DNA of 32,307 bases from a virus. Of this stretch, positions 2,436-27,605 are shown one piece after another. The notes beneath the pieces were generated by a model, which was given only the letters and a program-made list of their open reading frames with translations, did not search any database and was not told the origin of the DNA. The position numbers and the translations under genes are program-made. The DNA lies in IMG/VR virus record IMGVR_UViG_3300021961_009522, positions 1 to 32,307 of that record, one strand, 5' to 3'. Every line of letters starts with the position of its first letter. Positions within the stretch are counted from its first letter, which is position 1.

Positions 2436-5400
2436 ATGGCATATATAACACAGTCTGGTAATACGCAATGTTATTCTTGTGGTAAAAACTGCATTAATGT
2501 TGAATTTTGTAATGATGGCGGCGGATATGGTTATAATGATGACTATTCTGCTAGTGCTAATGGTGTCAATTTATCAAGAAATATTAGAGTTAAAATTATA
2601 GCCAACCAAGCTTATTGGGGCTTTAGTGGAACATTAATAGAGGGCTGGGCAACATACTCTAATGGATATTATGATTTTTTTGATAATCATGCTGAAAAAC
2701 ATTCATATGATCACTTTTGTTATGGTACAGATGGAGAAACAATTACTAGGTTTGGCGTAGTACCAAACGTAAATAGATCAGATGTTCGATATCGATCAGT
2801 ATATGATCCAGAAAATAGAATAGTTAAAGATTATAATGGCACTACTTTATTATCAGCCAGTGATGGACTTGGTGGAGCAGAAGTATATTTAGTTGATCGT
2901 GGTGGTAGTGCATCAGACGGGGATGGATGTGAATCCTCAAACCCCAGTAATAGTTTTAGAAAAAATCCAGCATCTTTTGGTTTTGGTAATAAAATTCATT
3001 TCTATAGTCGCATATATAAAAATATTACCGGCGCATGGAGATTGACTAGTTTAGAAAATTGCTATGATCCAGCCGATTTAGGATATGGAGCCGGTCATTT
3101 ATTAGAATGTGACAATACGCCAAAACAAAACATAATCTATAAAGACAGTCAATACCAAAATTATGATCCAACAAGAATCAGGGCATTTGACCAACCATCT
3201 GATTATTATGGCTATCAAAGTCGCTGCTTACCAGATGGATCGGTGGTTGGTAAATATAGTGGTAGAATTAGCGAAATTACTAGAGATTTAGGTGGTGGTG
3301 GATTTATTACTGTTGGTCTTTATTATGGCTCAGATGCCCCGTATTTACCAGCCACTGGATTGCAAGAGGGGATGTCTATAACCATTAATAATGATATTAG
3401 TGGCGTATTTAATAATCAATATCGAATTTTCAATATTAGTCATCAGACTCATAGTACTACGGTGCAATTAGTCGGCACATCGACGGGTAATGCATTAGAT
3501 GCGTCAATACCAACCGGCATATTTGCATTAGATATAGATGGTAGTGGAACTTGGATAGCTCATGATACTTATGATCCGCAAACATGTTGTAGCACAAGCG
3601 CATATGGTGTGGATAATGAAACGAAAAAATTACAACCAAATTATCATGCAGATATGCGCAAGGTTTTTAATAATCCCAAAAACTTAATGCAGTCAAATAG
3701 AAATGCCGTAGATAGATATACATATAATGTCTTTACTGCTAGTGAATTATCTGGTAGCGGTGCAGTAATAGATTATACATATCCACTGGTTAGTGGTGAA
3801 TTAGATTCTTCTGGCATACCAACAGGAACTGGGTATGTAGTATTAACTACCGGTAATGATAGTTGGTTAAGTATTGATGATAGCGGGAGATATGGACATC
3901 CTGTTTTTCATCGACAATTACCATATTATGGCGAATTTTATAATGTTGATCGATGTCAAAATCTTACTAGAATACAGCAATTAATAGATAGAGGCAAGAG
4001 AGATAATGCAACATGTTATAGTAAAAGAGCAACATTAGAAGTATATCCAGATTGCATTACTCAATATGATCAGTATGAAGTTTGTGACATTGCAACTGAT
4101 AGATATCCTACTAATTTAGTTCCTAGATTAGCATTTGTTTATCGTGGTTGTGATTTTTATGATACTTGTAACTTTGATGCCAGTGGATTACCGATTGGTG
4201 GATGGCAAGGGGGTGTACCAACGGGCATTAATGATCTTAAAAGATTGTTGGCCGGAACTGAAATTCATATGTTTTTAAATTTAGGCACAGCTTGGGGTGG
4301 TAGATTGCCGGGAACACCATGTCCATGTGATTGTAGTGAGGAGCCAGCAACGGGAGAACGAGCGCCATTACATATTGATATACCAAGCCCAATGAGTTTT
4401 CCAAATTTTCCAAATTTTGATTTAAATCCGTCTGGTTATGGATGCTCTGATCCAAGATGGCAAATTGCAAAGGCTATGGAAGAAGCTGGTGGCACTTTAA
4501 GCAATACTAGTCTTTGCGATCCACTTCATACTTCTGCATCAGCATGTAATGTGAAACAGCCATATACTACATATGGATATATTATGGGCCTATGCGGTAA
4601 ACAAAATCGTGATAGAAAAGATGTTATTGCTAATGCCTTTGCAAATACATATCAAGATAAAACTTATACCAATGCTACTCCGTCAGTAGATATAGATGAA
4701 CCCATGTATTGGTCATTTACCTCTCCAAGTCCAGATAGTGGAGGAACTGTATGGTCTAGTGGCACCGGTAGTAGAAGCGATGGTGGCGGTGATTTTGTTC
4801 AAATGGCTGGCAGTGGTTATGGCTGGTGGGGAATTGCAGATGCAAACAAACAAATAGTGGCTCCATATTTTCCAACAAAAATTAATCAATACAAGTGCTG
4901 TCCAGCTGATTCTAATCAATCTTATCTTGATTTTAATAATACTGGAGTTTTATCGCTTGGTTGGCCCACCAACGGAGTGCCGTTTTTAATTGAATTGGAA
5001 GTAGAAGATTTTTGTGGTGGATGTGTAACTAAGGTAATGGATGATACATCTTTGCAATTATCTATACAGGGCTTAAGCTCAGAATTTATTTGGAATCAGA
5101 GCAATAAGTATGGTCATAACTATTGTAAATATGATGGGGAAATGGTTTCTCAGTTGCCTCGCCCATTTTGGGGTTGTGCTAGCGGCTTTCAAGAGGCTTC
5201 ATGCAATATTCTTTTTGATGATCCAACTTATTCTATAAATGCTAAATACGCAAACAGAAACACTGGTAATACTTGTGAATGTTTAGACAACTCAATTACT
5301 TTATCTCCAGTAAAATTGGCTGGTACAGATATAATTTTGGGCTGGAGAAGCGGAGACGGAAGTGCTGAAGGATTAATTGAAATAGAAAATTGTAATATGC

Positions 5401-8354
5401 CCAATAGTCCAAAATTTACTAGTTCATATAGTCTATTATCTGAGGGTGGTGGATATAAAGTTTTTGCCCAATTTGATTTAGCTTGCCCCGGAATGCATGA
5501 CTTTTTATATGATACACAATATCCAGAAGCGGCATATGGTTCTAATCCACTTACTACCCTGTGGAGCAGCACTAGTAGCTGCGGGCATAGATATCCAGCA
5601 GTTTCAAATCAAGACTTGCAATTAAGAACAAGGCTATGGCTAGTATCAGTTCCATGGCTAGAAGTATTTCAAAAATTCACTAGGGATGCGCTTTTAAACT
5701 TTGATTTTGAAAGTTGTTTAGTTGGATCAAATATTTATGGAGGTTATGGCAATGGACTATTTGGAGTTTGTCCCGGTGATCAGGTAGAGGCATATGGTTG
5801 CAAGGTTGGAGGTATTTGGCGCGGCTGCGGAGGATATGGTTATGGTGAAGATCCATGTGATGCTGCCACGCCATGTAATACATGTGCTACAGGAATAGCA
5901 AGCGGGGTTTGGTGCGTATGTGACAATGCTATTGGTTTCGATGGAGAGATACGTCCACTGCCCATGAATTATGATATTGATGGATGCGGATGTCTATGTT
6001 TAGAGCCAGAATTAATGGCGCTATACACTGTACAATCTGATTTTACTTTAGCTTTAGCTAGTGGCGGCTCACCGTGTGGAACAATATATTGGTATGGTAT
6101 TGAATCTAAGGGTATAGAACCAATTCTTATGTCATGTGGTCCACCATATCCATATATTGGATATAGATATGGCGATATTACAACCTCATTTGATTGGCAC
6201 GAGTGGAGCCACGGAGTGAATGCGATCACTTCTGGAATATTGTATGAGCTTAATAAACCAAAAATAGGCAATGCCGATGATTGTGATAGTCTACCATTAG
6301 AAAACAGAATTTGTGTAAATGAAGGGTGTACTTTAGATAATAATGTATCATCTAAAAGTTGTGGTTATCCAATTTTTCATAGCGGTGATGCATCTGTTGC
6401 TGTCAGAAAAAAGAAATGTCATCCAGAAATTGCTATAGTAACCAAAATTGCTTGTGTTGCTTCCGGTTATGACTTAACTTTATCTAGGGAGTATCATGAG
6501 CATGATAGAATTTGGAAGGAGGTAGTGGGTTATACTGATGAAATACCCCCTGCACGAATATGTCAAGAAATTATAAAAGGTACATATGTTTACACAAATT
6601 CAGCCGGAGTTACCGGATGTATACAGCTGCCTTACATGATGCCAACAGACACTGTTACGCCATCTTATGTTGCCCCATGTAGCGTACATTTATCAAGCGG
6701 TGCATTTGCTGTTCAAGATTTTCGATTTGCAGATGCCGCCGATAATGGCTCTTATTATTGGAACTACTATAATTTATTTTATGGCGGCGGCAGTGCTGTA
6801 AGTCCTAGTAATGGCTATCTAGTTGCTTCATTGGCTGAATATGTGGATTATGATACTAATTTACCATATTTTGATAGTTCGTGTCCACCAACGGGAACTC
6901 CATCAAAAACATTGCCAGTATGGGCAACTGGCGCACTATATTCTGATGAAATTACGAATAACAAACATAGCTGCATACAAGACAGTGCTGCGTGTGGCGG
7001 GGATATGTGGTGTAATAAGATATTTTTTCCAAGACATTATTATTTGTCTGGTACAAGAGTGGCACCTTTTGGTGCGGGCGTAATTTGTACCAATAATGCA
7101 GAACGACAAATGCCAAATTTAGAAGGGTATGTAGAAGCTGGAGAAACAATTAGTGCTGCTCGTTCATTATTTGCAGAGGCAAAAAATAGATTTATTGATT
7201 TCTGTGATGATAATTTTATTCAAGAGCTAGTTTATGATTTATCAATAGATGGCAACGTGATCACAGTGGAAGACTATTTACCATTGCTTGGCGTGGTTCA
7301 CCCCGGCTTTAGATATACATCAGATGTTAAAAGCTGCATAGTAGTTACATCCGGTTGCGCTAACAATATTCCATTACATTCTAATATGAGCATCAGCGGA
7401 GGTTTACATTTACCACAAACATATACACAAAACGCTTTTGATTCTATGGGTTATTGGTTAGATCAAACGGTCGCGTCAGCAGCAGATCAATGCTTATTTA
7501 GTCCATTTAAGATATTGCTAGATGTTGAATGTAACACCAATAGAATAAGAAGAAAAAACTCTAATGACGATCCCACCTATTTACAAGGCATACAAGAATG
7601 GCCAGCGGGGGCGTGTAGAAGCGAACAGACAGGACCGCCATGTGGTTGCCAAGACTCTGCCTGTAGTTTAAATGTTAATGATGCTACCTGTGAAAAGTAT
7701 AATATTCTATCATATAGATGGGATGTAGTAGAAACAGAATATTTTCTTGATGCTGGCTGTTCCGGTTGCACAGTGGTAAATTATGACGGATCTGAAAGCG
7801 GCACATTTGGAACATATGCTATTAATCCAAACCCGGTAGGTATATTGGTACATCCGTCAATGATAGATTTTGATGATAGTCCAGAACTGTCAGGTCAAGT
7901 TATAACCACAAATAATTTTTCTTGTTGTGGTTATGATTGGATAACTACTGCTAGTTCAAACGGGCTGCCAACATTATATAGGTATAAATGCGATGATCAA
8001 TATTATGAAATAGATGGGGGTGAATTAGGCCAGTGGTTTAAAGTCTGGGAATGTAGTGGATCTGCTGATGTATCTACTGTAATGAAGGGGGCATTCAATA
8101 GCCAATGCGAATGTCTAGCAGATCTCAATGGCTTGTGTGCAGCAACTTATAGATGCGAAGATGGATTTGCCAATGAGCCTAATTGCACACACTGTGCAGA
8201 AATTACAGAATTTATGGGTGGATTAAATGGTCAGGCCGTTGGCTATTACCCAGAATACTATGAAAAGGAATGTGATTGCATGGCAAGACCAGTAGGAGGC
8301 ACAGAATGCGAAACTAATTCAATGGTTAAGTTTATTATTACAGAATCTGAGTAA
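2436..8354 (+). CDS. Giant cysteine-rich virion-like protein, 1972 aa
   Basis: Function not recognised. This is the largest gene in the window. It starts 23 bases after the previous stop; the leader GAAGGACAAGGACAATAGG gives a plausible purine-rich ribosome site. By hand count it has about 90 cysteines (roughly 4.5%), spread over the whole length, often as CxC, CC or CxxC (for example CPCDC, CGCLC, CECL, and CDC near the C-terminus), with very high Tyr, Gly, Asn and Asp. No signal peptide, membrane segment, collagen repeat or peptidase motif is visible, and I see no simple tandem repeat. Such size and composition fit a fibre, adhesin or baseplate-wedge protein stabilised by disulfides or metal. 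It ends 3 bases before the stop codon of the opposing operon. Confidence 0.65.
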   Translation: MAYITQSGNTQCYSCGKNCINVEFCNDGGGYGYNDDYSASANGVNLSRNIRVKIIANQAYWGFSGTLIEGWATYSNGYYDFFDNHAEKHSYDHFCYGTDGETITRFGVVPNVNRSDVRYRSVYDPENRIVKDYNGTTLLSASDGLGGAEVYLVDRGGSASDGDGCESSNPSNSFRKNPASFGFGNKIHFYSRIYKNITGAWRLTSLENCYDPADLGYGAGHLLECDNTPKQNIIYKDSQYQNYDPTRIRAFDQPSDYYGYQSRCLPDGSVVGKYSGRISEITRDLGGGGFITVGLYYGSDAPYLPATGLQEGMSITINNDISGVFNNQYRIFNISHQTHSTTVQLVGTSTGNALDASIPTGIFALDIDGSGTWIAHDTYDPQTCCSTSAYGVDNETKKLQPNYHADMRKVFNNPKNLMQSNRNAVDRYTYNVFTASELSGSGAVIDYTYPLVSGELDSSGIPTGTGYVVLTTGNDSWLSIDDSGRYGHPVFHRQLPYYGEFYNVDRCQNLTRIQQLIDRGKRDNATCYSKRATLEVYPDCITQYDQYEVCDIATDRYPTNLVPRLAFVYRGCDFYDTCNFDASGLPIGGWQGGVPTGINDLKRLLAGTEIHMFLNLGTAWGGRLPGTPCPCDCSEEPATGERAPLHIDIPSPMSFPNFPNFDLNPSGYGCSDPRWQIAKAMEEAGGTLSNTSLCDPLHTSASACNVKQPYTTYGYIMGLCGKQNRDRKDVIANAFANTYQDKTYTNATPSVDIDEPMYWSFTSPSPDSGGTVWSSGTGSRSDGGGDFVQMAGSGYGWWGIADANKQIVAPYFPTKINQYKCCPADSNQSYLDFNNTGVLSLGWPTNGVPFLIELEVEDFCGGCVTKVMDDTSLQLSIQGLSSEFIWNQSNKYGHNYCKYDGEMVSQLPRPFWGCASGFQEASCNILFDDPTYSINAKYANRNTGNTCECLDNSITLSPVKLAGTDIILGWRSGDGSAEGLIEIENCNMPNSPKFTSSYSLLSEGGGYKVFAQFDLACPGMHDFLYDTQYPEAAYGSNPLTTLWSSTSSCGHRYPAVSNQDLQLRTRLWLVSVPWLEVFQKFTRDALLNFDFESCLVGSNIYGGYGNGLFGVCPGDQVEAYGCKVGGIWRGCGGYGYGEDPCDAATPCNTCATGIASGVWCVCDNAIGFDGEIRPLPMNYDIDGCGCLCLEPELMALYTVQSDFTLALASGGSPCGTIYWYGIESKGIEPILMSCGPPYPYIGYRYGDITTSFDWHEWSHGVNAITSGILYELNKPKIGNADDCDSLPLENRICVNEGCTLDNNVSSKSCGYPIFHSGDASVAVRKKKCHPEIAIVTKIACVASGYDLTLSREYHEHDRIWKEVVGYTDEIPPARICQEIIKGTYVYTNSAGVTGCIQLPYMMPTDTVTPSYVAPCSVHLSSGAFAVQDFRFADAADNGSYYWNYYNLFYGGGSAVSPSNGYLVASLAEYVDYDTNLPYFDSSCPPTGTPSKTLPVWATGALYSDEITNNKHSCIQDSAACGGDMWCNKIFFPRHYYLSGTRVAPFGAGVICTNNAERQMPNLEGYVEAGETISAARSLFAEAKNRFIDFCDDNFIQELVYDLSIDGNVITVEDYLPLLGVVHPGFRYTSDVKSCIVVTSGCANNIPLHSNMSISGGLHLPQTYTQNAFDSMGYWLDQTVASAADQCLFSPFKILLDVECNTNRIRRKNSNDDPTYLQGIQEWPAGACRSEQTGPPCGCQDSACSLNVNDATCEKYNILSYRWDVVETEYFLDAGCSGCTVVNYDGSESGTFGTYAINPNPVGILVHPSMIDFDDSPELSGQVITTNNFSCCGYDWITTASSNGLPTLYRYKCDDQYYEIDGGELGQWFKVWECSGSADVSTVMKGAFNSQCECLADLNGLCAATYRCEDGFANEPNCTHCAEITEFMGGLNGQAVGYYPEYYEKECDCMARPVGGTECETNSMVKFIITESE

Positions 8355-9119: not shown

Positions 9120-9131
9120 ACTATTGTTTAT

Positions 9132-9491
9132 TTATTCTTCTTTACCCGTTTCTTTATTGTACTTGCGCCAAGGTTTCCAATTTCCGTCATCATCTTTGTT
9201 CTTTGGAAATAGTCCACCACCCTTCTTGTTTACACCAAATACTCTTCTAGCATAATGACAGTCTTGATTTTTGGGATCATAGCATACAAGCTCATAGTAT
9301 TCATTCTCGTCCTTATCACTCCTAACATTAACCCTAACTTTATCTGAGCTTTGTCCATTTTTTACACATACATTATCATCATATAATTCATGCATGTGAT
9401 GCAAAAACTTAAATGCATCAGTATCAGTTTCGCACTCTTTGGATATTACTACTTGGGTTCCACCTAAAGTTACATGGTAATCTACTTTCAT
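9132..9491 (-). CDS. Hypothetical protein beside the annealing protein, 119 aa
   Basis: Not recognised by function. The start codon forms an ATGA overlap with the stop of the putative single-strand annealing protein gene upstream, so the two are probably co-translated. The N-terminal half alternates strand-like segments (MKVDYHVTLGGTQVVIS). The C-terminal half has a conserved-looking, basic Gly/Pro/Trp segment (KKGGGLFPK, then DDGNWKPWRKY). Two cysteines (in VCYDPKNQDC) are not enough for a zinc site. The close pairing suggests an accessory role in recombination or DNA binding, which is inference. A GC-rich hairpin follows its stop. Confidence 0.6.
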   Translation of the reverse strand: MKVDYHVTLGGTQVVISKECETDTDAFKFLHHMHELYDDNVCVKNGQSSDKVRVNVRSDKDENEYYELVCYDPKNQDCHYARRVFGVNKKGGGLFPKNKDDDGNWKPWRKYNKETGKEE

Positions 9492-10180
9492 GATTCATTC
9501 CAATCTTTATTATAGCCTTTTAAACTCTCTGTAACAGCATGATCACCCCTTTTGATTTTATTGATTTGGTCAATCATCTTAGCGGCTGTATCACGCTTTA
9601 TCTCGTATACACTATTATATACTTTTTCTCCAGAATTGATGAACCTAATTACATCCAAATCTAATTTTTTGCAATTAATATCAATATATTTTATCTGTTC
9701 TGGCTTAATTCTTTCATCCTGCTGTCCAGACTGCTGGCTTAAATACTGTGATACATCTTTCTTGCATAGCTCCTCTGCGGCCACCACACGCAGTTTAAGG
9801 GCTTTTCTTAATGCCCTACCCTCTGCCTTGGTTGACGCTGTTGCCGGGGCGTGAACAGCAAATAGATCGTCTGTATTGCCAGCCCAGACATCAGCAACAT
9901 CGGCATATGTTTTTATGTATTCCTTATCGTCTTTTTTGACTAAGAACTGTACTTCGTAAGTAACTGTTGTTTTGCCGATTGGATCGCCTGTTTCAACTCT
10001 TTGTACATCAATTGGCTTGCTGGATATAATTTCCCCAATTAACATTTCAGCCACTCGTCTTAGGCCAGATGTTAATGGATTACCATCTATAAGCTCTTTT
10101 GGCGCAAAGAACTGCATTACATAATCGTTCCATTCTGGCGAAAGCATACTTGGTATTTCAGATTCTTTTTGTTTGTCCAT
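9488..10180 (-). CDS. Putative single-strand annealing / Rad52-like recombination protein, 230 aa
   Basis: The ATG at 10180 has GAGGT five bases upstream. The region around residues 75-135 is a beta-rich core ending in a helix with the signature ATASTKAEGRALRKALKLR, followed by VVAAEE. This alternation of a strand-rich stretch and an Ala/Arg-rich helix resembles the core of ERF/Rad52/DdrA-type annealing proteins and a related actinophage and environmental-phage family. Such proteins anneal complementary single strands during phage recombination. The C-terminal 70 residues (after QQSGQQDERIKPEQIKYID) look like a helical domain of the kind that often follows an annealing core. It overlaps the upstream putative homing endonuclease gene by 23 bases. 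I am not certain of the family; a general DNA repair protein is the alternative. Confidence 0.5.
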   Translation of the reverse strand: MDKQKESEIPSMLSPEWNDYVMQFFAPKELIDGNPLTSGLRRVAEMLIGEIISSKPIDVQRVETGDPIGKTTVTYEVQFLVKKDDKEYIKTYADVADVWAGNTDDLFAVHAPATASTKAEGRALRKALKLRVVAAEELCKKDVSQYLSQQSGQQDERIKPEQIKYIDINCKKLDLDVIRFINSGEKVYNSVYEIKRDTAAKMIDQINKIKRGDHAVTESLKGYNKDWNES

Positions 10181-10985
10181 CTTTTACCTCAATTTCTATC
10201 AAGCGGTTTTTAATACTGGGAAACTTTTTGTCTATTCCATTCAATTCTTTGATTATCAACTTTAACAAATGATTCATTTTTGTCAATGAGATGCTTTTAT
10301 CTATTTGTCTAATTCTAATAATAACATATCCACTGTTTATTAGAATACCTTGTTTAGCAGTATCTGCGACTTGTTGTTTAACTAATTTTTCTTGACCCCA
10401 TATTGGAATAAAATGTCCCGGCCCATCAATTTCAATAGCGGTTTTCAATTCTGGTAGAAATAAATCTACTTCTAAGTCACTGCCAAAAACCAATCCTGTT
10501 TTATGGAATTCTACTGTATAACCGGCAGACATTAATCCATGATTCAGATGTCTTTCTGTTTTTGAGCCATATTTACTCGCATTTCTAACGCTTTCCAATG
10601 CTAGACTTCTAATTTCTTCTTGTTTGGCCCGGCCCATAGCGTCCCAATTTTTTTTGCTTAATTGAGATATTTTTTGTTTTTCATCCTCAGATAAATTGTG
10701 ATACGCTTTCGATCTAGATTCTCCAATCCTCTGTTTGTGTTCCTGATCTAACTTTTTTCCCTCTGTTGGATGTTTAGCTCTGCCGTTTTTCAATGCTAGT
10801 TTTTGAGCCTCTGAATAATCGCGCCGAAAGTGATTTTCATCATCATATAATGTTTTACCTAGAAACTTTAACGCCCTTAAAACTCTAGTAGAATATGTAT
10901 TTAATTCATCAGCAATTTCATAACTGCTGCATCCGCTATTATACATTTTGATTATTTTGTCTTTGTTTTTGAGAGCAAATTCCAT
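10158..10985 (-). CDS. Putative homing endonuclease, HTH plus VSR-like (EDxHD-type) nuclease, 275 aa
   Basis: The ATG at 10985 has the strongest Shine-Dalgarno in its neighbourhood (GGAGGATATATG). Residues 11-43 form a resolvase-like helix-turn-helix (SSYEIADELN). Residues 60-120 are basic and helical, with NUMOD3-like spacing (HKQRIGESRSKAY and SQLSKKNWD). Residues 140-225 form a VSR/PD-(D/E)XK-like fold with candidate catalytic residues E144, D174, E185, H191 and D208 around IEIDGPGHFIPIWG. This matches the EDxHD homing endonuclease type known from phage recA introns. It is free-standing here, inserted between sugar-transfer genes and the annealing protein gene, with 34- and 23-base overlaps. 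A repair or resolvase role is a weaker alternative. Confidence 0.65.
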   Translation of the reverse strand: MEFALKNKDKIIKMYNSGCSSYEIADELNTYSTRVLRALKFLGKTLYDDENHFRRDYSEAQKLALKNGRAKHPTEGKKLDQEHKQRIGESRSKAYHNLSEDEKQKISQLSKKNWDAMGRAKQEEIRSLALESVRNASKYGSKTERHLNHGLMSAGYTVEFHKTGLVFGSDLEVDLFLPELKTAIEIDGPGHFIPIWGQEKLVKQQVADTAKQGILINSGYVIIRIRQIDKSISLTKMNHLLKLIIKELNGIDKKFPSIKNRLIEIEVKDGQTKRI

Positions 10986-16560: not shown

Positions 16561-18105
16561 CTATATCAAGAATACTTTATCCACTATGAAAGAATTTCTT
16601 TGTCTATCCTTAATTCTTCCAGAAAGCAATACGGTAGCCTCCTCATACATTATATCTCTGTTTTGCTCATAGATGTCAGGGAAAACTACAATATTTTCTA
16701 ATTCTCCAGAATCATCCTCAACTGACAAAAAGGCCATAATGTCGCCATTTTTAGTCTTATATTCTCGTAGCCTCTTAATAATAACCGCAATAACAGAATC
16801 TTCCATTTTACCATCTACAATTTCCTTACATGTTGTATTTGCGTGACAGGCATCAGAACATGTGTTTAATTCCGAATGGTTAATAGAACATCCAAGCAGC
16901 TTCTCCTCTATTTTAGCATATACCATAGAATTGTCAAGCAGGCTTCTTCCCGGCGTTTTGATTCTTAGTATAATATTACTAATCTTATCTAGTCTAGATT
17001 GTGTAGTAATAAAGCCTCCCTGTTTTTTAGTACCCTTGGAAATAAAACATTCTAGTGTAGATACCGCATCTAATAAATGGCATTCTATGTTGTTTTGTAT
17101 TTGATCCATTTCTTTTTTAGTTAAATCCAAGTAACAATGGTACTCATGCAGCATTTCAGTTCTTGTCTTTTTTAATCCGGCAAATGCGCCAACCTTAATT
17201 AGATTTTCTACTGCTCGCTTATTAACAAATGGTAGAACGTGAATCAAAATATTGCACCAAGTTATATTGTTGTTGTCTAATTTAGACAAATGCTGTCTTA
17301 GCTGCTTTAAATGAATTGCGCCCACATTCTTTACATTGCATATCCCAAAGTATATGGCTTCATTTTTCCAAAAGAAATTCTCTTCTAAATATTGTATAGT
17401 CGGTCCCTTGACCTCGATATTTTCAGCCTTAGCTGATATAATCAATTGTTTTTTCTCAAAGTCTGGATCTATCTTTTCATCGGCATTTTTTAGCCAATGC
17501 TTAAAGAATTTTTCTGGATAGTGATATTTTGTCCACGCTGACCAATATGCCATTTTAGCATATGCTACGGCATGTGATTTATTAAATGAATATCTGGCAG
17601 ATTTCTCAATCATGTCAAAAATCTCTTCAGCCTTTTCTTGGTCAATATAGTTTTTGACGCATCCATCAATAAATTGTCCGCGAATAGTTCTCATTAAGTC
17701 TGCTTTTTTCTTACCAATAGCTTTACGTAAATTATCAGCTTCTTTCAAGTTAAAGTTAGCTAGCTTAACGGCAATTTCCATTGCCTGTTCCTGATATACA
17801 ATAACCCCATATGTTTCTTCTAATAGCCCATCGATTAATGGATGTAAGCTGGGAATATCTTCATTGCCATGCTTTCTATCCACGAAGTGTTGCGTCATTG
17901 ACTTGCCATCAACAACGGCCTTAAGTGTTCCGGGTCTAATAATACTGATTAGTGCTGCTAATTCTGTCATATTCTCTGGTTTTAATTTCTTACACCAAGT
18001 CTTACCAAGATGACTTTCTATCTGAAAACATCCTTTGACCCTGCCATCTCCTATCATCTCCCATACTTTAGTATCATTCTCTGGTATGTTTGTTATATCA
18101 ATCAT
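16561..18105 (-). CDS. dnaE: DNA polymerase III alpha subunit, C-terminal part (fingers, HhH, OB), 514 aa
   Basis: It completes the replicative polymerase. The start is the ATG at 18105 (GGGGAA before it), two bases after the exonuclease stop; an upstream TTG at 18111 is less likely. It begins IDITNIPENDTKVWEMI, the point where DnaE continues after its third catalytic Asp, then GCFQIES, ISIIRPG, DRKHGNEDI, EETYGVIVYQEQAMEIA, RKAIGKKK and SFNKSHAVAYA, all fingers-domain landmarks in normal order. The tandem helix-hairpin-helix region is about residues 290-330 and a C-terminal OB domain spans about 435-514 (IKRLREYKTKNGDIMAF, SGELENIVVFPD). Parts 1 and 2 sum to about 1130 residues, close to full-length DnaE (E. 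coli 1160). No clamp-binding motif is obvious. Confidence 0.9.
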   Translation of the reverse strand: MIDITNIPENDTKVWEMIGDGRVKGCFQIESHLGKTWCKKLKPENMTELAALISIIRPGTLKAVVDGKSMTQHFVDRKHGNEDIPSLHPLIDGLLEETYGVIVYQEQAMEIAVKLANFNLKEADNLRKAIGKKKADLMRTIRGQFIDGCVKNYIDQEKAEEIFDMIEKSARYSFNKSHAVAYAKMAYWSAWTKYHYPEKFFKHWLKNADEKIDPDFEKKQLIISAKAENIEVKGPTIQYLEENFFWKNEAIYFGICNVKNVGAIHLKQLRQHLSKLDNNNITWCNILIHVLPFVNKRAVENLIKVGAFAGLKKTRTEMLHEYHCYLDLTKKEMDQIQNNIECHLLDAVSTLECFISKGTKKQGGFITTQSRLDKISNIILRIKTPGRSLLDNSMVYAKIEEKLLGCSINHSELNTCSDACHANTTCKEIVDGKMEDSVIAVIIKRLREYKTKNGDIMAFLSVEDDSGELENIVVFPDIYEQNRDIMYEEATVLLSGRIKDRQRNSFIVDKVFLI

Positions 18106-18107
18106 TT

Positions 18108-18794
18108 TCAATTCCCCATAAATGCATTTTTAAAGTTCTTTTTGGAAGCCAATGTTCTAAGCATCTTCATTGTTCTACAGAATAGTTCTGCGGTCATAAC
18201 AACATCAGACATCGCATCATGTGCCGTTCCATGTGCATAGCCCATATAACCACGAATTAAATTATCAGCAGATAATGAATTTACATCCTTATTGTTTTCA
18301 AATAATGTGAACATAAAGTCTAGCATGTCAATACTATGTATCTTGTTAAATAAATCCTGCTCTCCGCGATTATTGTCTACGGGTCCAAATTTATATGGTG
18401 GTTTTGAGCATAGCCTATTTACTATTACAGAGTCAAAATTTTTAATATTGTATCCAACAGATATTGGCGCACTCCAGTTACTTCCCTTAAAATTATATTG
18501 GTTTACATAGTCCGTGAAGTTTTTCCATACTGATTCTGTTGATGGTGCGTCTTTGAGTATTTCTTCAGTCTTGCCATGTACTGCTATAGCACCTTCTTCA
18601 AGGGGGTCTATGCCTAGCTTTTTACATTCTTCTTTATCGAATATTGGCCTCATTAGGGATTGAAATTCAGAACCGGTTTTGATCTCTAGCTTTCTACCAT
18701 GTATAGCGACGGCAGCGATTTGTACTGGTTGAGTAGTGTATGGATTGGCACTACTGGTTTCAAAGTCATACACAATATAATCTCTATAGTTCAT
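18108..18794 (-). CDS. dnaQ: DnaQ-like 3'-5' proofreading exonuclease (DEDDh), 228 aa
   Basis: It would remove misincorporated nucleotides for the polymerase on either side. From the first ATG (18797) the motifs are: Exo I at residues 10-14 (YDFET, D11 and E13), Exo II GYNIKNFDS with D122, and Exo III AHDAMSDVV with H193 and D198, so a complete DEDDh set. I prefer the second ATG at 18794 because AGAGGT is five bases upstream of it. It overlaps the polymerase N-part by about 11 bases and lies 2 bases before the C-part. At about 228 aa it is near the size of E. coli epsilon (243 aa), but the segment after Exo III is only about 25 residues. Its location inside a broken dnaE strongly implies it is the epsilon equivalent. 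Confidence 0.9.
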   Translation of the reverse strand: MNYRDYIVYDFETSSANPYTTQPVQIAAVAIHGRKLEIKTGSEFQSLMRPIFDKEECKKLGIDPLEEGAIAVHGKTEEILKDAPSTESVWKNFTDYVNQYNFKGSNWSAPISVGYNIKNFDSVIVNRLCSKPPYKFGPVDNNRGEQDLFNKIHSIDMLDFMFTLFENNKDVNSLSADNLIRGYMGYAHGTAHDAMSDVVMTAELFCRTMKMLRTLASKKNFKNAFMGN

Positions 18795-20631
18795 CATTTA
18801 CCTCTTCTATGGTATCTGCTATTTTCTTTAATAGATTTACGCCCAAAATATCAAATTTTACACATCCAATAGCTTCTAGGTCTCCCATTTCCATTCCAGC
18901 TATTTGTTCAGAGCTACGAGAAGATTTTACCATTGGGCATATTTCTTGCAAATCATTAGAGGCTATGACTACACCCGCAGCATGTTTGCCCTGTGTTTTA
19001 AAAATGCCCTCCATACGCATGGCCTGTTCAAATACTTTTGCATATTCTCCCTGTAGTTCATTGTTATCGTCCAGCCAGCAATAATCTATTAATGCATTTT
19101 TATCATTCTCTAAGGCCCATCTAATTACAGACGGATTATCCATTTCTTCTAATAGATCTGATATTGCCGCTTCATTTGGTATTTTTTCTGTAATTTGATT
19201 CATTTGATCAAAGCTACAAGTTTCATTTACCCTCAATACTTCCTTTAAAATAGACCTTCCGGCTAATCTGCCAAAAGTTAACATTTGACAAACTCTTGCT
19301 TCGCCATATTTATCCTTTAGATATTGTATTACTTGTTCTCTATAATCTGGTGGAAAATCAACATCAATATCTGGTAGCGATATATGATCGTCTGTGTTTC
19401 TGCCATCATTATAAAAACGCTCAAAGAGTAGGCCGTATTCAATAGGGTCAATTAATGTGATGCCTGTAAGGTAGCAAACTAGTGATCCACCACCAGATCC
19501 ACGGGCTGGCCCAACAAGACATCCAAGCCTACGGAAATGGTTTACGTAGTCTTGTACTATTAGAAAGTAACCAGCCAATTTGGCATTTTTAATAACCTCT
19601 AATTCCTTTAGAACTCTATCCTTATAAGCATTAAGCTTACTGGCATCAACACGTTCTTTAACTAATTTAGTCCACCCATTTCTGCATAATTGCTTGAGAT
19701 ATTCATCTTCAGAGCTATCGTCTGGCGTTTTAAATTCTGGCAGCTTTGGTTTTGAAAGAATATCTATTTCTTCAATTAAGTTTGTTATTTCTTTGAGATT
19801 GTAGTACATTGCATTATCATACAGCTTCACAAGCTCGTCAGAAGTTTTAACATAATAATTGCTACTTTTTATAAATCTTAATGCTTCTAGATCTTTTTTC
19901 TCAATAATTTTTTGATCTAGTTTTTTCATAGTAGTTTTAAGCTTTGTGCAAATTAATACGCGGTGATCGATTGCGTCTTTCTTCTGGCAGTAATATGTGG
20001 CAGTATCTGGAATGCATATTTGATGGTTGGGGTCAATAGATTCAATAATATCCTTCATTACCTTAGTTATTGGATATGATTCATGATTTGTATTATTTAC
20101 CTCAAGATAGTAATGCTTAAACTTGCCACGCATATATTCTACATGGTCGCTAGCCAATTGCTTATAATTAGCGTTGAGACAGTCTTCAATACTGTCATTA
20201 TCTAAGGACTCAAAAACGCAATCAATATTAGGCATTACAATAGAAAATAATTTACTTCCGATATATCCATCAATGCATATAAAGTCATCACAGCTAATTG
20301 TATCCATAAGTATATCGAATGGAATTGTTGGATTCTCCTTATAATTACTTGGATTATTGGCAATAGATATTATGCGCAATAGCTGCGTCCAAGCATATTG
20401 ATTTTTGCATATCAGCGTTATTCTTGCATCATTATCAAGAATTATTTCTGATCCTATGATGGGAATTATATTATGATTGTCACAAGCTTGTATAAATTTA
20501 ACACACCCGCTGATAGTTGCAATGTCTGTAATGCCGGAATGTGTATAACCGGCATCAGCACAGGCTTTAACTATTTGATCACAACGAGATATTGATGACA
20601 ATAATGAATAATGACTATGATTTCTTAGCAT
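18784..20631 (-). CDS. dnaE: DNA polymerase III alpha subunit, N-terminal part (PHP and palm), 615 aa
   Basis: It contains the catalytic half of a DnaE polymerase. The N-terminus is a PHP domain (LRNHSHYSLLSSISRCD, PIIGSEI) in which the canonical TDHG is TDIA, so at least one metal ligand is lost. Residues 371-426 hold CLVGPARGSGGGSLVCYLTG and SLPDIDVDFPPDYR, with catalytic D421 and D423 (E. coli D401 and D403). EGIFKTQGKHAAGVVIAS is the conserved thumb/palm stretch, and VKFDILGV holds D594 (E. coli D555). The protein stops about 20 residues later (VNDEL), where a one-piece DnaE would continue. It overlaps the RecB-like nuclease gene by 17 bases and the exonuclease start by about 11. No intein or frameshift is seen at the break. 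Confidence 0.92.
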   Translation of the reverse strand: MLRNHSHYSLLSSISRCDQIVKACADAGYTHSGITDIATISGCVKFIQACDNHNIIPIIGSEIILDNDARITLICKNQYAWTQLLRIISIANNPSNYKENPTIPFDILMDTISCDDFICIDGYIGSKLFSIVMPNIDCVFESLDNDSIEDCLNANYKQLASDHVEYMRGKFKHYYLEVNNTNHESYPITKVMKDIIESIDPNHQICIPDTATYYCQKKDAIDHRVLICTKLKTTMKKLDQKIIEKKDLEALRFIKSSNYYVKTSDELVKLYDNAMYYNLKEITNLIEEIDILSKPKLPEFKTPDDSSEDEYLKQLCRNGWTKLVKERVDASKLNAYKDRVLKELEVIKNAKLAGYFLIVQDYVNHFRRLGCLVGPARGSGGGSLVCYLTGITLIDPIEYGLLFERFYNDGRNTDDHISLPDIDVDFPPDYREQVIQYLKDKYGEARVCQMLTFGRLAGRSILKEVLRVNETCSFDQMNQITEKIPNEAAISDLLEEMDNPSVIRWALENDKNALIDYCWLDDNNELQGEYAKVFEQAMRMEGIFKTQGKHAAGVVIASNDLQEICPMVKSSRSSEQIAGMEMGDLEAIGCVKFDILGVNLLKKIADTIEEVNDEL

Positions 20632-25701: not shown

Positions 25702-26189
25702 TTGAAGCTCCTACATTTTCCTAAGTCTTGAAATAGTGATACTCGTTTTTTTATGTCCTTACATGTTTCATTTAATATGTTCATACCGGCTTCAAGTCTC
25801 ATTCTACATCTTTCAATGGATTGAGCAAATGTATTATCATTGATAATAGATTTTTTTCTTATTTCAGCCGGGAGGTATTTATCATAATTGTCCCAGTATT
25901 TTGAATACAATAAATTCAATGCTTCGATGCACCAAGTATATTGTCCATGTATTACATCATGTTTTTTTTGCAGCAATCCAGCATAATTCATAAGTGTAAT
26001 GCCGTGACAAAAACATTCATCTTGTGATAGACTCATTAGCTCTCCATGAGACATATCTATAATGAATTTATAATCATCACTATTCTTGTATTCAACTATA
26101 TTATTCTCTTTACAAAATGAATCAACCCATTGTGTAAATTTCTCTAGAGCTTCTACTGATTCACTGACTGTTGTATCAAATGCTTCCAT
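25698..26189 (-). CDS. Helical protein, possible UvsY-like recombination mediator, 163 aa
   Basis: The protein is almost wholly helical. The order of segments (SQDECFCHGITLMNYAGLLQ, HGQYTWCIEALNLLYSKYW, and AQSIERCRMRLEAGMNILNE, then KKRVSLFQDLGKCR) matches a phage family often annotated as UvsY-like, found next to recA/uvsX genes. UvsY loads the recombinase on SSB-coated DNA. The start at 26189 has AGGA six bases upstream and is embedded in the 3' end of a nuclease gene; the stop forms ATGA with the next gene. Position, two genes downstream of the RecA-like gene, supports the guess. Identity rests on pattern memory only; an unrelated coiled-coil protein is the alternative. Confidence 0.45.
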   Translation of the reverse strand: MEAFDTTVSESVEALEKFTQWVDSFCKENNIVEYKNSDDYKFIIDMSHGELMSLSQDECFCHGITLMNYAGLLQKKHDVIHGQYTWCIEALNLLYSKYWDNYDKYLPAEIRKKSIINDNTFAQSIERCRMRLEAGMNILNETCKDIKKRVSLFQDLGKCRSFK

Positions 26190-26581
26190 TGTTTTTCCTC
26201 GTTATATGGCAGTACTATAACCTTGATGCCGTTCATATCTCCCCACTCTATTTTATCTGTATCTCGTCTTTTTGCATATACGAAGTCTAATTTATTAGCA
26301 TGAAAAAATGAAGAATATTCATAATGCTGTTTTCCATGAACTTCTATTATACACATTAATTCTGGGATAAAAAAATCAGCATATAGCAATGACGGCCTAC
26401 CAATTCTTTTAGATCCCGGCAGTGTTACTTCCTCATATATTGATATATGTGGAAATAATTCATTCAATAATGTTCTAGCTTTCAGATGGAGCGATGATTT
26501 ATTGTTTTGATATTTTCTGCTATTGTTTTTGGTAAAATTAAAATTGTGTTCTTTTTGATCAAAACCAATAACTTTAAACAT
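26153..26581 (-). CDS. VSR-like PD-(D/E)XK nuclease, 142 aa
   Basis: Residues 30-125 follow a very-short-patch-repair-like fold: helix HLKARTLLNELFP, then YADFFIPELMCIIEVHGKQH with candidate catalytic D69, E80 and H86, then FVYAKRRDTDKIEW and IKVIVLPYNEE. It resembles the nuclease domain of the HTH-bearing gene at 10158-10985 in spacing (D, E, H), but lacks DNA-binding extensions. I start it at ATG 26581, which overlaps the RecA-like stop by 8 bases; the longer frame uses a TTG. Its place straight after the recombinase gene suggests a junction- or mismatch-directed cut in recombination, although a stripped homing endonuclease is an alternative. Confidence 0.6.
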   Translation of the reverse strand: MFKVIGFDQKEHNFNFTKNNSRKYQNNKSSLHLKARTLLNELFPHISIYEEVTLPGSKRIGRPSLLYADFFIPELMCIIEVHGKQHYEYSSFFHANKLDFVYAKRRDTDKIEWGDMNGIKVIVLPYNEEKQWKHLIQQSVNQ

Positions 26582-27605
26582 CCAACAACATAGCTCCAAC
26601 CTGATCTCTAATTAAATCAAAAATTTTGTTATTCTCAACTAAGAATTCATATATCTTTGTTTGACCTTGAAATTTGGGAGCCTCATCAAATCCCTTAGTG
26701 CCTTGTAGAAATGGTATGCTATACCAAGCACCAGCCTTTTCAATAATGCCAAACGATTCGGCCAATTCAATTATTTCTTTTTCTTTATCTATGCCCTTGT
26801 TATATTTGATATAGCTAATGCATTCTGTACCAGACGCACCCATAGAAGAACAACTAATTTTCCAATGAATCAATTGGCCTATTTTTTTATTGCCATCCTC
26901 CCAAGGTTCTATCTTGGCGATATCTAGTCTTGTATCTGCTTGATATTGTACCATTACTCCGCAGTCTGGTATTTTAATCTTACCATATCCAGAAGTATTA
27001 GTAATGTAATGTGTGATTATCAATACAATGATTTTATTTTTGACCACGGTTTGTGAAACTTTTTTAATCCAATGTGATAATAATTTTGGCAGGCTGGCCC
27101 TCAGTGACGCAGAAGAACTTTCTTCTAATTCAGTTCTTGGCACTAAGGAGGAGCATGAATCTATTACACATACCGCTCCTTGATTTTCTGGACGCTTCAT
27201 CAGACTTTCAGCAATATCTAGAAAGTCTTCAGCAGATAATGAATCTGCATCTTCTGGGCTATGAATAATTTGTATTTTATCTAGATCTAGCCCTTCTATA
27301 CCAACAAGATTATATGCTTTCAATCTGCTTTCGCCGTCAATATATATTACTGGCCTGCCCTCATCTTGTGCGTTTTTGCAAATCTGTAAGCAGGTTGTGC
27401 TTTTGCCAGTTTTTGGATCTCCAGAAATAATGGTCCAGCTACCTTCAAGTATTCCACCATTCAATGCCAAATCTAATGATGGACTGACACTTATTGGCTT
27501 TAGTTCTGTTTTTAATGTTAACAGTTCAGATCCTTTAGAAACAACTTTACCAAAAGCCTTTTGTATGGCTTTGTCGGTGCTTAAATCAACTTTAACTTTA
27601 GCCAT
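26574..27605 (-). CDS. RecA-like recombinase, 343 aa
   Basis: It would form a filament on single-stranded DNA and carry out strand exchange. Residues 40-70 hold SPSLDLALNGGILEGSW and Walker A GDPKTGKST (62-70). YIDGE with catalytic-position E92 follows, and Walker B is AVCVIDSCSSLVP (D149). KIIVLIITHY, then PDCGVMVQYQADTRLDIAK, match the L2-to-strand region of RecA. ELAESFGIIEKAGAWYSIP is a RecA C-terminal landmark. Length is near E. coli RecA (352 aa), although the acidic tail is missing. The start forms a one-base TAATG overlap with the preceding gene and has GAAGGA upstream. With the putative UvsY-like and nuclease genes it forms a recombination block. Confidence 0.85.
   Translation of the reverse strand: MAKVKVDLSTDKAIQKAFGKVVSKGSELLTLKTELKPISVSPSLDLALNGGILEGSWTIISGDPKTGKSTTCLQICKNAQDEGRPVIYIDGESRLKAYNLVGIEGLDLDKIQIIHSPEDADSLSAEDFLDIAESLMKRPENQGAVCVIDSCSSLVPRTELEESSSASLRASLPKLLSHWIKKVSQTVVKNKIIVLIITHYITNTSGYGKIKIPDCGVMVQYQADTRLDIAKIEPWEDGNKKIGQLIHWKISCSSMGASGTECISYIKYNKGIDKEKEIIELAESFGIIEKAGAWYSIPFLQGTKGFDEAPKFQGQTKIYEFLVENNKIFDLIRDQVGAMLLDV

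Follow-up and report, generated by a model that had tools for sequence, protein, structure and literature searches.

Split phage enzymes and split C-family DNA polymerases are already known. In phage Aeh1 the divided NrdA retains full function, and pieces also make up T4 topoisomerase and the gene 43 polymerase of some phages (PMC2988022). Jumbo phages of group 2.2 possess a split minimal DNA polymerase III (Pol III) alpha, encoded as two proteins by distant genes (Iyer et al. 2021, PMC7824862). In ~2000 bacterial genomes surveyed by Timinskas et al., the only cases mentioned beyond the intein-split cyanobacterial genes were fragments that are possible sequencing errors, and the exonuclease is fused inside the PHP domain in PolC and at the N-terminus in some Bacteroidetes DnaE1 proteins (PMC3919608). 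The locus described here is a new variant, in which an exonuclease gene occupies the break in the polymerase. It lies in a 32,307-nucleotide viral sequence (the window, a 32 kb fragment record, IMG/VR IMGVR_UViG_3300021961_009522), whose DnaE-type Pol III alpha, at 16561-20631 on the minus strand, consists of two open reading frames (ORFs) flanking a complete DEDDh exonuclease gene. The arrangement is found across a very large group of uncultured phages, and no paper on it was found among the open-licence literature. The best reading is a three-chain polymerase core that would assemble without splicing.

Transcription on the minus strand runs from the alpha N-part through the exonuclease to the alpha C-part, with the following features:

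18784..20631, minus strand: alpha N-part (PHP, palm and thumb), 615 residues; Pfam PF02811 (3.6e-21) and PF07733 (7.4e-71)
18108..18797, minus strand: DEDDh 3'-5' exonuclease (epsilon-like), 229 residues; PF00929 (1.9e-13, full length) and PHROG 192
16561..18105, minus strand: alpha C-part (fingers, HhH and OB), 514 residues from ATG; PF17657 (1.1e-45), HHH_6 and OB
18784..18797, minus strand: overlap of N stop and exonuclease start, 14 or 11 bases; read from the sequence
18106..18107, minus strand: 2-base gap from exonuclease stop to C ATG; read from the sequence
19363..19371, minus strand: codons of catalytic D421 and D423 (PDIDVDF); sequence and alignment of relatives
18850..18852, minus strand: codon of catalytic D594 (VKFDILG); sequence and alignment of relatives
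17569..17589, minus strand: SFNKSHA, uninterrupted, residues 175-181 of the C ORF; sequence and alignment of relatives

The overlap and gap are those given in an earlier, sequence-only reading of the window, and the combined length of N and C (1129-1131 residues) agrees with the ~1130 stated there. The exonuclease has two tandem ATGs, the second in frame at 18794, and the choice between them sets the overlap at 14 or 11 bases. The C ORF (16561-18111) opens at a TTG at 18111, giving 516 residues; the ATG at 18105 gives 514. A Shine-Dalgarno-like AGAGGT run lies just 5' of the exonuclease start, and GGGGA just 5' of the C ATG. Scanning the cluster for promoters and terminators returned terminator-like sites only at chance level, and the window contains no Rfam match at gathering threshold.

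By Pfam, N carries PHP and DNA_pol3_alpha and C carries DNA_pol3_finger, HHH_6 and OB, the OB match being slightly below the Pfam cut-off. The DnaE-type domain set (PHP, palm with three catalytic aspartates, fingers, HhH and C-terminal OB) is complete and spread over two chains, with D421, D423 and D594 all located in N, as had been proposed. PHROG 405 (DNA polymerase) spans both halves consecutively (profile positions 47-616 in N, 623-1055 in C), and sequence profiles place N on residues 13-606 of M. tuberculosis DnaE1 and C from residue 612. Structurally, the N model aligns with residues 15-576 of E. coli alpha and 18-608 of the M. tuberculosis enzyme, and the C model with residues 583-1073 and 611-1099, respectively (Z about 18-20 for both models on E. 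coli alpha); these are single-chain AlphaFold2 models, with a mean predicted local distance difference test (pLDDT) score of 72.3 for N and 74.5 for C. By sequence profiles and predicted structures alike, N and C tile solved alpha without overlap, leaving a gap of only a few residues, which bears out the claim that the C-part resumes where a one-piece DnaE would.

On E. coli alpha, the break falls at the palm/fingers boundary. It had been placed just after VKFDILGV; the region is right, but the actual break lies ~15-20 residues further on, within the linker that leads into the DIxxIP motif at the start of the C-part. The tau-binding domain is absent after OB, the C model and the chain ending at E. 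coli residue 1073 of 1160. The PHP metal-binding residues (window 20520-20631) are degenerate in the window subclade and largely retained in many distant members; a separate exonuclease is present in all members, whichever state these residues are in. Pfam detects no Hint or intein match in the window's N and C parts. Furthermore, N ends ~10-30 residues past its last alpha-homologous residue and C starts at its first; because both ORF ends stop at alpha homology, there is no room for an intein at the N/C break, in keeping with the intein-free junction originally described.

The middle gene encodes a full-length RNase_T/Exonuclease domain (PF00929), and PHROG 192, to which it is assigned, is the polymerase exonuclease subunit. 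Its DEDDh set (D11, E13, D122, H193 and D198) is invariant in 92 of 92 complete triplets. Beyond the catalytic domain, a short linker is followed by a conserved xFxxxF/Y tail, which is a candidate binding peptide. The E. coli exonuclease binds alpha through the PHP domain. Across ~50,700 deposited phage records, the window exonuclease has no close match, and the three weak matches do not adjoin DnaE.

The sequence-only reading had suggested searching phage genomes for the same gene order. Such a search of IMG/VR, with N, the exonuclease or C as query and >550 candidate stretches confirmed in each scan, gave 172 distinct loci. The three genes are separate ORFs in N-exonuclease-C order in 154 of them, down to ~35-42% identity, whereas N and C share one ORF in none of the 172. 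No other order of the three occurs; the loci beyond the 154 are mostly cut by a contig end, and in five the next gene was not found in the longer sequence after N or the exonuclease. A sequencing or assembly error, which would have fused the halves once corrected, is therefore rejected as the source of the split. Throughout the relatives, N stops soon after an LLxKI helix and C begins at or near the DIxxIP motif. D421, D423 and D594 are invariant in all 92 complete triplets, and when the window is compared with four relatives, all three genes have a ratio of nonsynonymous to synonymous differences (pN/pS) of 0.10-0.23, with synonymous sites near saturation.

In a tree of N+C, all 92 members form one group against 15 outgroups, with a Shimodaira-Hasegawa-like approximate likelihood ratio (SH-aLRT) support of 100; deeper placement is unsure because the branches are long. 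Pairwise distances correlate between N and C (0.92), exonuclease and C (0.86) and N and exonuclease (0.78), a pattern of sequence divergence that fits inheritance as a unit and does not by itself show contact. Each of 12 relatives of 96-244 kb has a single PF07733 match and a single PF17657 match, located in separate ORFs. An intact alpha elsewhere in the genome, which would have made the halves mere remnants, was not encountered in these 12 long records (the window's own record is a 32 kb fragment). The best 80 matches of each of two profile scans include no unsplit sister lineage, and a search of bacterial genomes for a prophage form gave a single 31-residue match only.

The junctions vary considerably among relatives. 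Overlap coupling of N and exonuclease is limited to close relatives of the window; elsewhere the junctions hold a small ORF or longer inserts. In most distant members an ORF of 57-81 residues fills the N/exonuclease junction, as it does in 130 of the 132 loci with a gap of 100-320 bases there (for example L047, 8871-9134). These small ORFs belong to two sequence types, an SCC motif being conserved in one, and the single ORF tested has no Pfam match. Locus L049 carries a uracil-DNA-glycosylase-like ORF between N and exonuclease (9130-9714; family 4 by eye). Many exonuclease/C junctions hold inserts as long as 3.7 kb, with endonuclease VII-type HNH genes, nuclease-like genes or methyltransferase-like genes among them (the latter two named by eye). 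The HNH genes of this type recur there (L005, 10508-10918; L153, 7677-8051; others), and L136-L139 hold a different nuclease-like gene at the same junction. Tight coupling had been taken to mean probable synthesis in equal amounts; the inserts at both junctions in relatives do not support this, and show that the system can do without such coupling and therefore without equal synthesis.

The halves themselves are also interrupted in some relatives. The C part is broken between SFNK and SHA/SHG, with a free-standing DUF559-type endonuclease, in L021, L078, L159 and L162; split-intein Hint halves are seen directly in L021 (11530-14343), and the other three probably carry a split intein as well. 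This point is four residues from the cyanobacterial DnaE split-intein site. The window was said to differ from the cyanobacterial case, and its own SFNKSHA is uninterrupted, but the distinction does not extend to these four relatives. Full-length HNH inteins, confirmed by Pfam, lie in the fingers at IIRPG/C in L013 (10628-12154) and L015 (10497-12863), and L139, L157 and L159 have an interruption at this site too. Within N, a LAGLIDADG ORF is found at ISL/PDIDVDF, just before the catalytic motif, in L023 (9160-10138) and L137 (5084-6340). These interruptions may be introns or split inteins; when the N part of L023 was searched for a group I intron, Rfam returned nothing at gathering threshold and weak, chance-like matches below it. 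In L024 (10473-12034), C is split again into ORFs of 278 and 242 residues with a 4-base ATGA overlap, making a three-chain alpha possible there. The polymerase is thus a repeated target of mobile endonucleases.

The sequences establish three ORFs with their domains and intact active sites, which are conserved and inherited together and occur once each in the long records. We infer that the chains associate, are active and bind the exonuclease, and it is probable that the cluster encodes a replicative C-family polymerase of two non-covalently assembled chains, broken between palm and fingers, with a dedicated proofreading exonuclease. The N chain, with PHP, palm, thumb and all three catalytic aspartates, would pair with the C chain of fingers, HhH and OB by the contacts usual between palm and fingers, restoring a one-piece type of DnaE without peptide ligation, neither chain being active alone. 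The exonuclease would bind the assembled alpha and proofread, acting as epsilon. Because the polymerase is repeatedly hit by mobile endonucleases, the N/C break itself is proposed to be endonuclease-born: the ancestral gene was probably broken by a mobile endonuclease, or by an intein later lost, at a break-tolerant site, and the exonuclease gene probably then became fixed in the break. This history is the least certain step.

Several explanations compete with a three-chain core. The exonuclease could be an independent nuclease, active in DNA degradation or RNA processing, whose place in the operon reflects chance or regulation and which has no binding to the split polymerase. PF00929 is a broad family, the matches to solved structures are weak and partial (PolC exonuclease 2e-5, CRN-4 1e-4), unrelated genes occupy the same junctions in relatives, and gene position alone is no proof of contact. 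Independence is nevertheless unlikely, given an exonuclease between N and C in an unvarying order at 154 loci, five invariant catalytic residues, membership in a polymerase-subunit family, a conserved tail and a distance correlation with C of 0.86. That the halves are rejoined after expression into an ordinary one-chain DnaE, by undetected trans-splicing, a highly diverged split intein or frameshifting, is very improbable. Inteins, both split and full, do exist in the C part of relatives, and LAGLIDADG ORFs break N in two loci, but the chain ends at the N/C break leave no space for one, the window halves lack any Hint match, and the window has no Rfam match at gathering threshold. The frame of the exonuclease with respect to N differs from locus to locus (79/59/28), which means that frameshifting is not the general route to a fused protein, and programmed frameshifting is rejected.

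Hardly any weight attaches to the split alpha being an accessory or decaying, non-replicative protein in a phage that uses the host polymerase. The missing tau-binding C-terminal domain would suit such a role, as would the failure to find a beta clamp or the gp45 clamp (PF02916) in the 12 long records. The gp23 capsid family was not found in these records either; the gp45 and gp23 searches were run without a positive control. Against it stand strong purifying selection, invariant active sites, the lack of any other alpha in those records, and the DnaB helicase, primase and RecA-like genes encoded in the window. The assembled three-chain polymerase, for its part, has points that weigh against it. 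The distance correlations are also expected from common descent alone, the structure models cover single chains at moderate confidence (mean pLDDT 72-75), and the contact of the exonuclease with either alpha half is putative; epsilon was said to be placed between the halves, which holds for the gene order but does not follow for the proteins. The records are fragments, leaving space for a second polymerase elsewhere, and similarity-ranked searches may have missed an unsplit sister lineage. A bolder version is tentative and, on balance, doubtful: that an entire major lineage of environmental phages, genomes of at least 244 kb among them, replicates with an obligately multi-chain C-family polymerase whose palm and fingers are separate subunits, the exonuclease bridging or stabilizing their joint, which would make the assembly of the polymerase and its proofreading subunit dependent on each other.

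Elsewhere in the window, two HNH/homing-endonuclease-like genes are present (10158-10985 and 26153-26599), the second adjoining a RecA/UvsX-like gene (26574-27605). A 1972-residue ORF (2436-8354, plus strand) lies beside replication genes and has no Pfam or PHROG match.

If correct, this would be a natural, long-lived replicative polymerase with palm and fingers as separate proteins and no splicing. It would allow tests of what keeps a C-family polymerase in one piece, of whether its fingers detach and of what the exonuclease contributes, and a natural two-part enzyme could serve as a tool. The gene order would also be a clear marker for a large phage group. The marine jumbo phage group PGC_A, marked by PF07733 (PMC9123017), may include this lineage, and surveys counting one DnaE domain in this way would overlook an enzyme in pieces.

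The locus resembles bacterial DnaE1 with its separate epsilon (E. coli, M. tuberculosis) in domain order, catalytic triad and a separate DEDDh exonuclease. It differs in that alpha is two chains encoded by two ORFs with an intervening gene, the exonuclease gene sits between the halves, the tau-binding domain is absent and the PHP metal residues are partly lost. As in PolC and some Bacteroidetes DnaE1 proteins, alpha and the exonuclease are genetically linked; unlike in these, the exonuclease here has its own gene, located at the break between palm and fingers. The distinction from PolC had been drawn correctly, OB being C-terminal here and N-terminal in PolC.

The closest split is that of Rossellomorea phage phiT1 (gp20/gp18, PV767480), whose DnaE comes as two intein-free ORFs divided at the same palm/fingers boundary. 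Its break holds a 49-residue ORF instead of an exonuclease, its N is 29.5% identical to the window N, and it falls outside the 92-member clade in the N+C tree; its break is therefore probably independent. Cellulophaga phage phi13:1 and Bacillus phage Jayan also have a split DnaE, at other points than the window, phi13:1 at the PDIDVDF motif where L023 and L137 are interrupted. In a 60-record spread sample of deposited phages, the matched part of the junction region was a single aligned piece in every record. Cyanobacterial split DnaE is likewise two genes but has intein halves at its break, whereas the N/C break of the window and its clade has none and lies ~180 residues upstream of that site. 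A 2009 paper on fractured genes reportedly described genes broken by a split intein together with a free-standing endonuclease; this layout does not occur at the window N/C break, but L021 has it at another position, as L078, L159 and L162 probably do.

Like the group 2.2 jumbo phages, the window has a Pol III alpha that is encoded as two proteins and apparently involves no splicing; there, however, minimal catalytic and template-binding modules, lacking other Pol III domains, accompany a family B polymerase (PMC7824862), whereas the window has every domain from PHP to OB, together with an exonuclease, in a single cluster. The T4-like genes in pieces are also broken phage enzymes with mobile endonucleases at the breaks and no splicing, as shown for NrdA (PMC2988022). 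Unlike those, the window break contains what is probably a partner enzyme, and it is fixed throughout a large clade.
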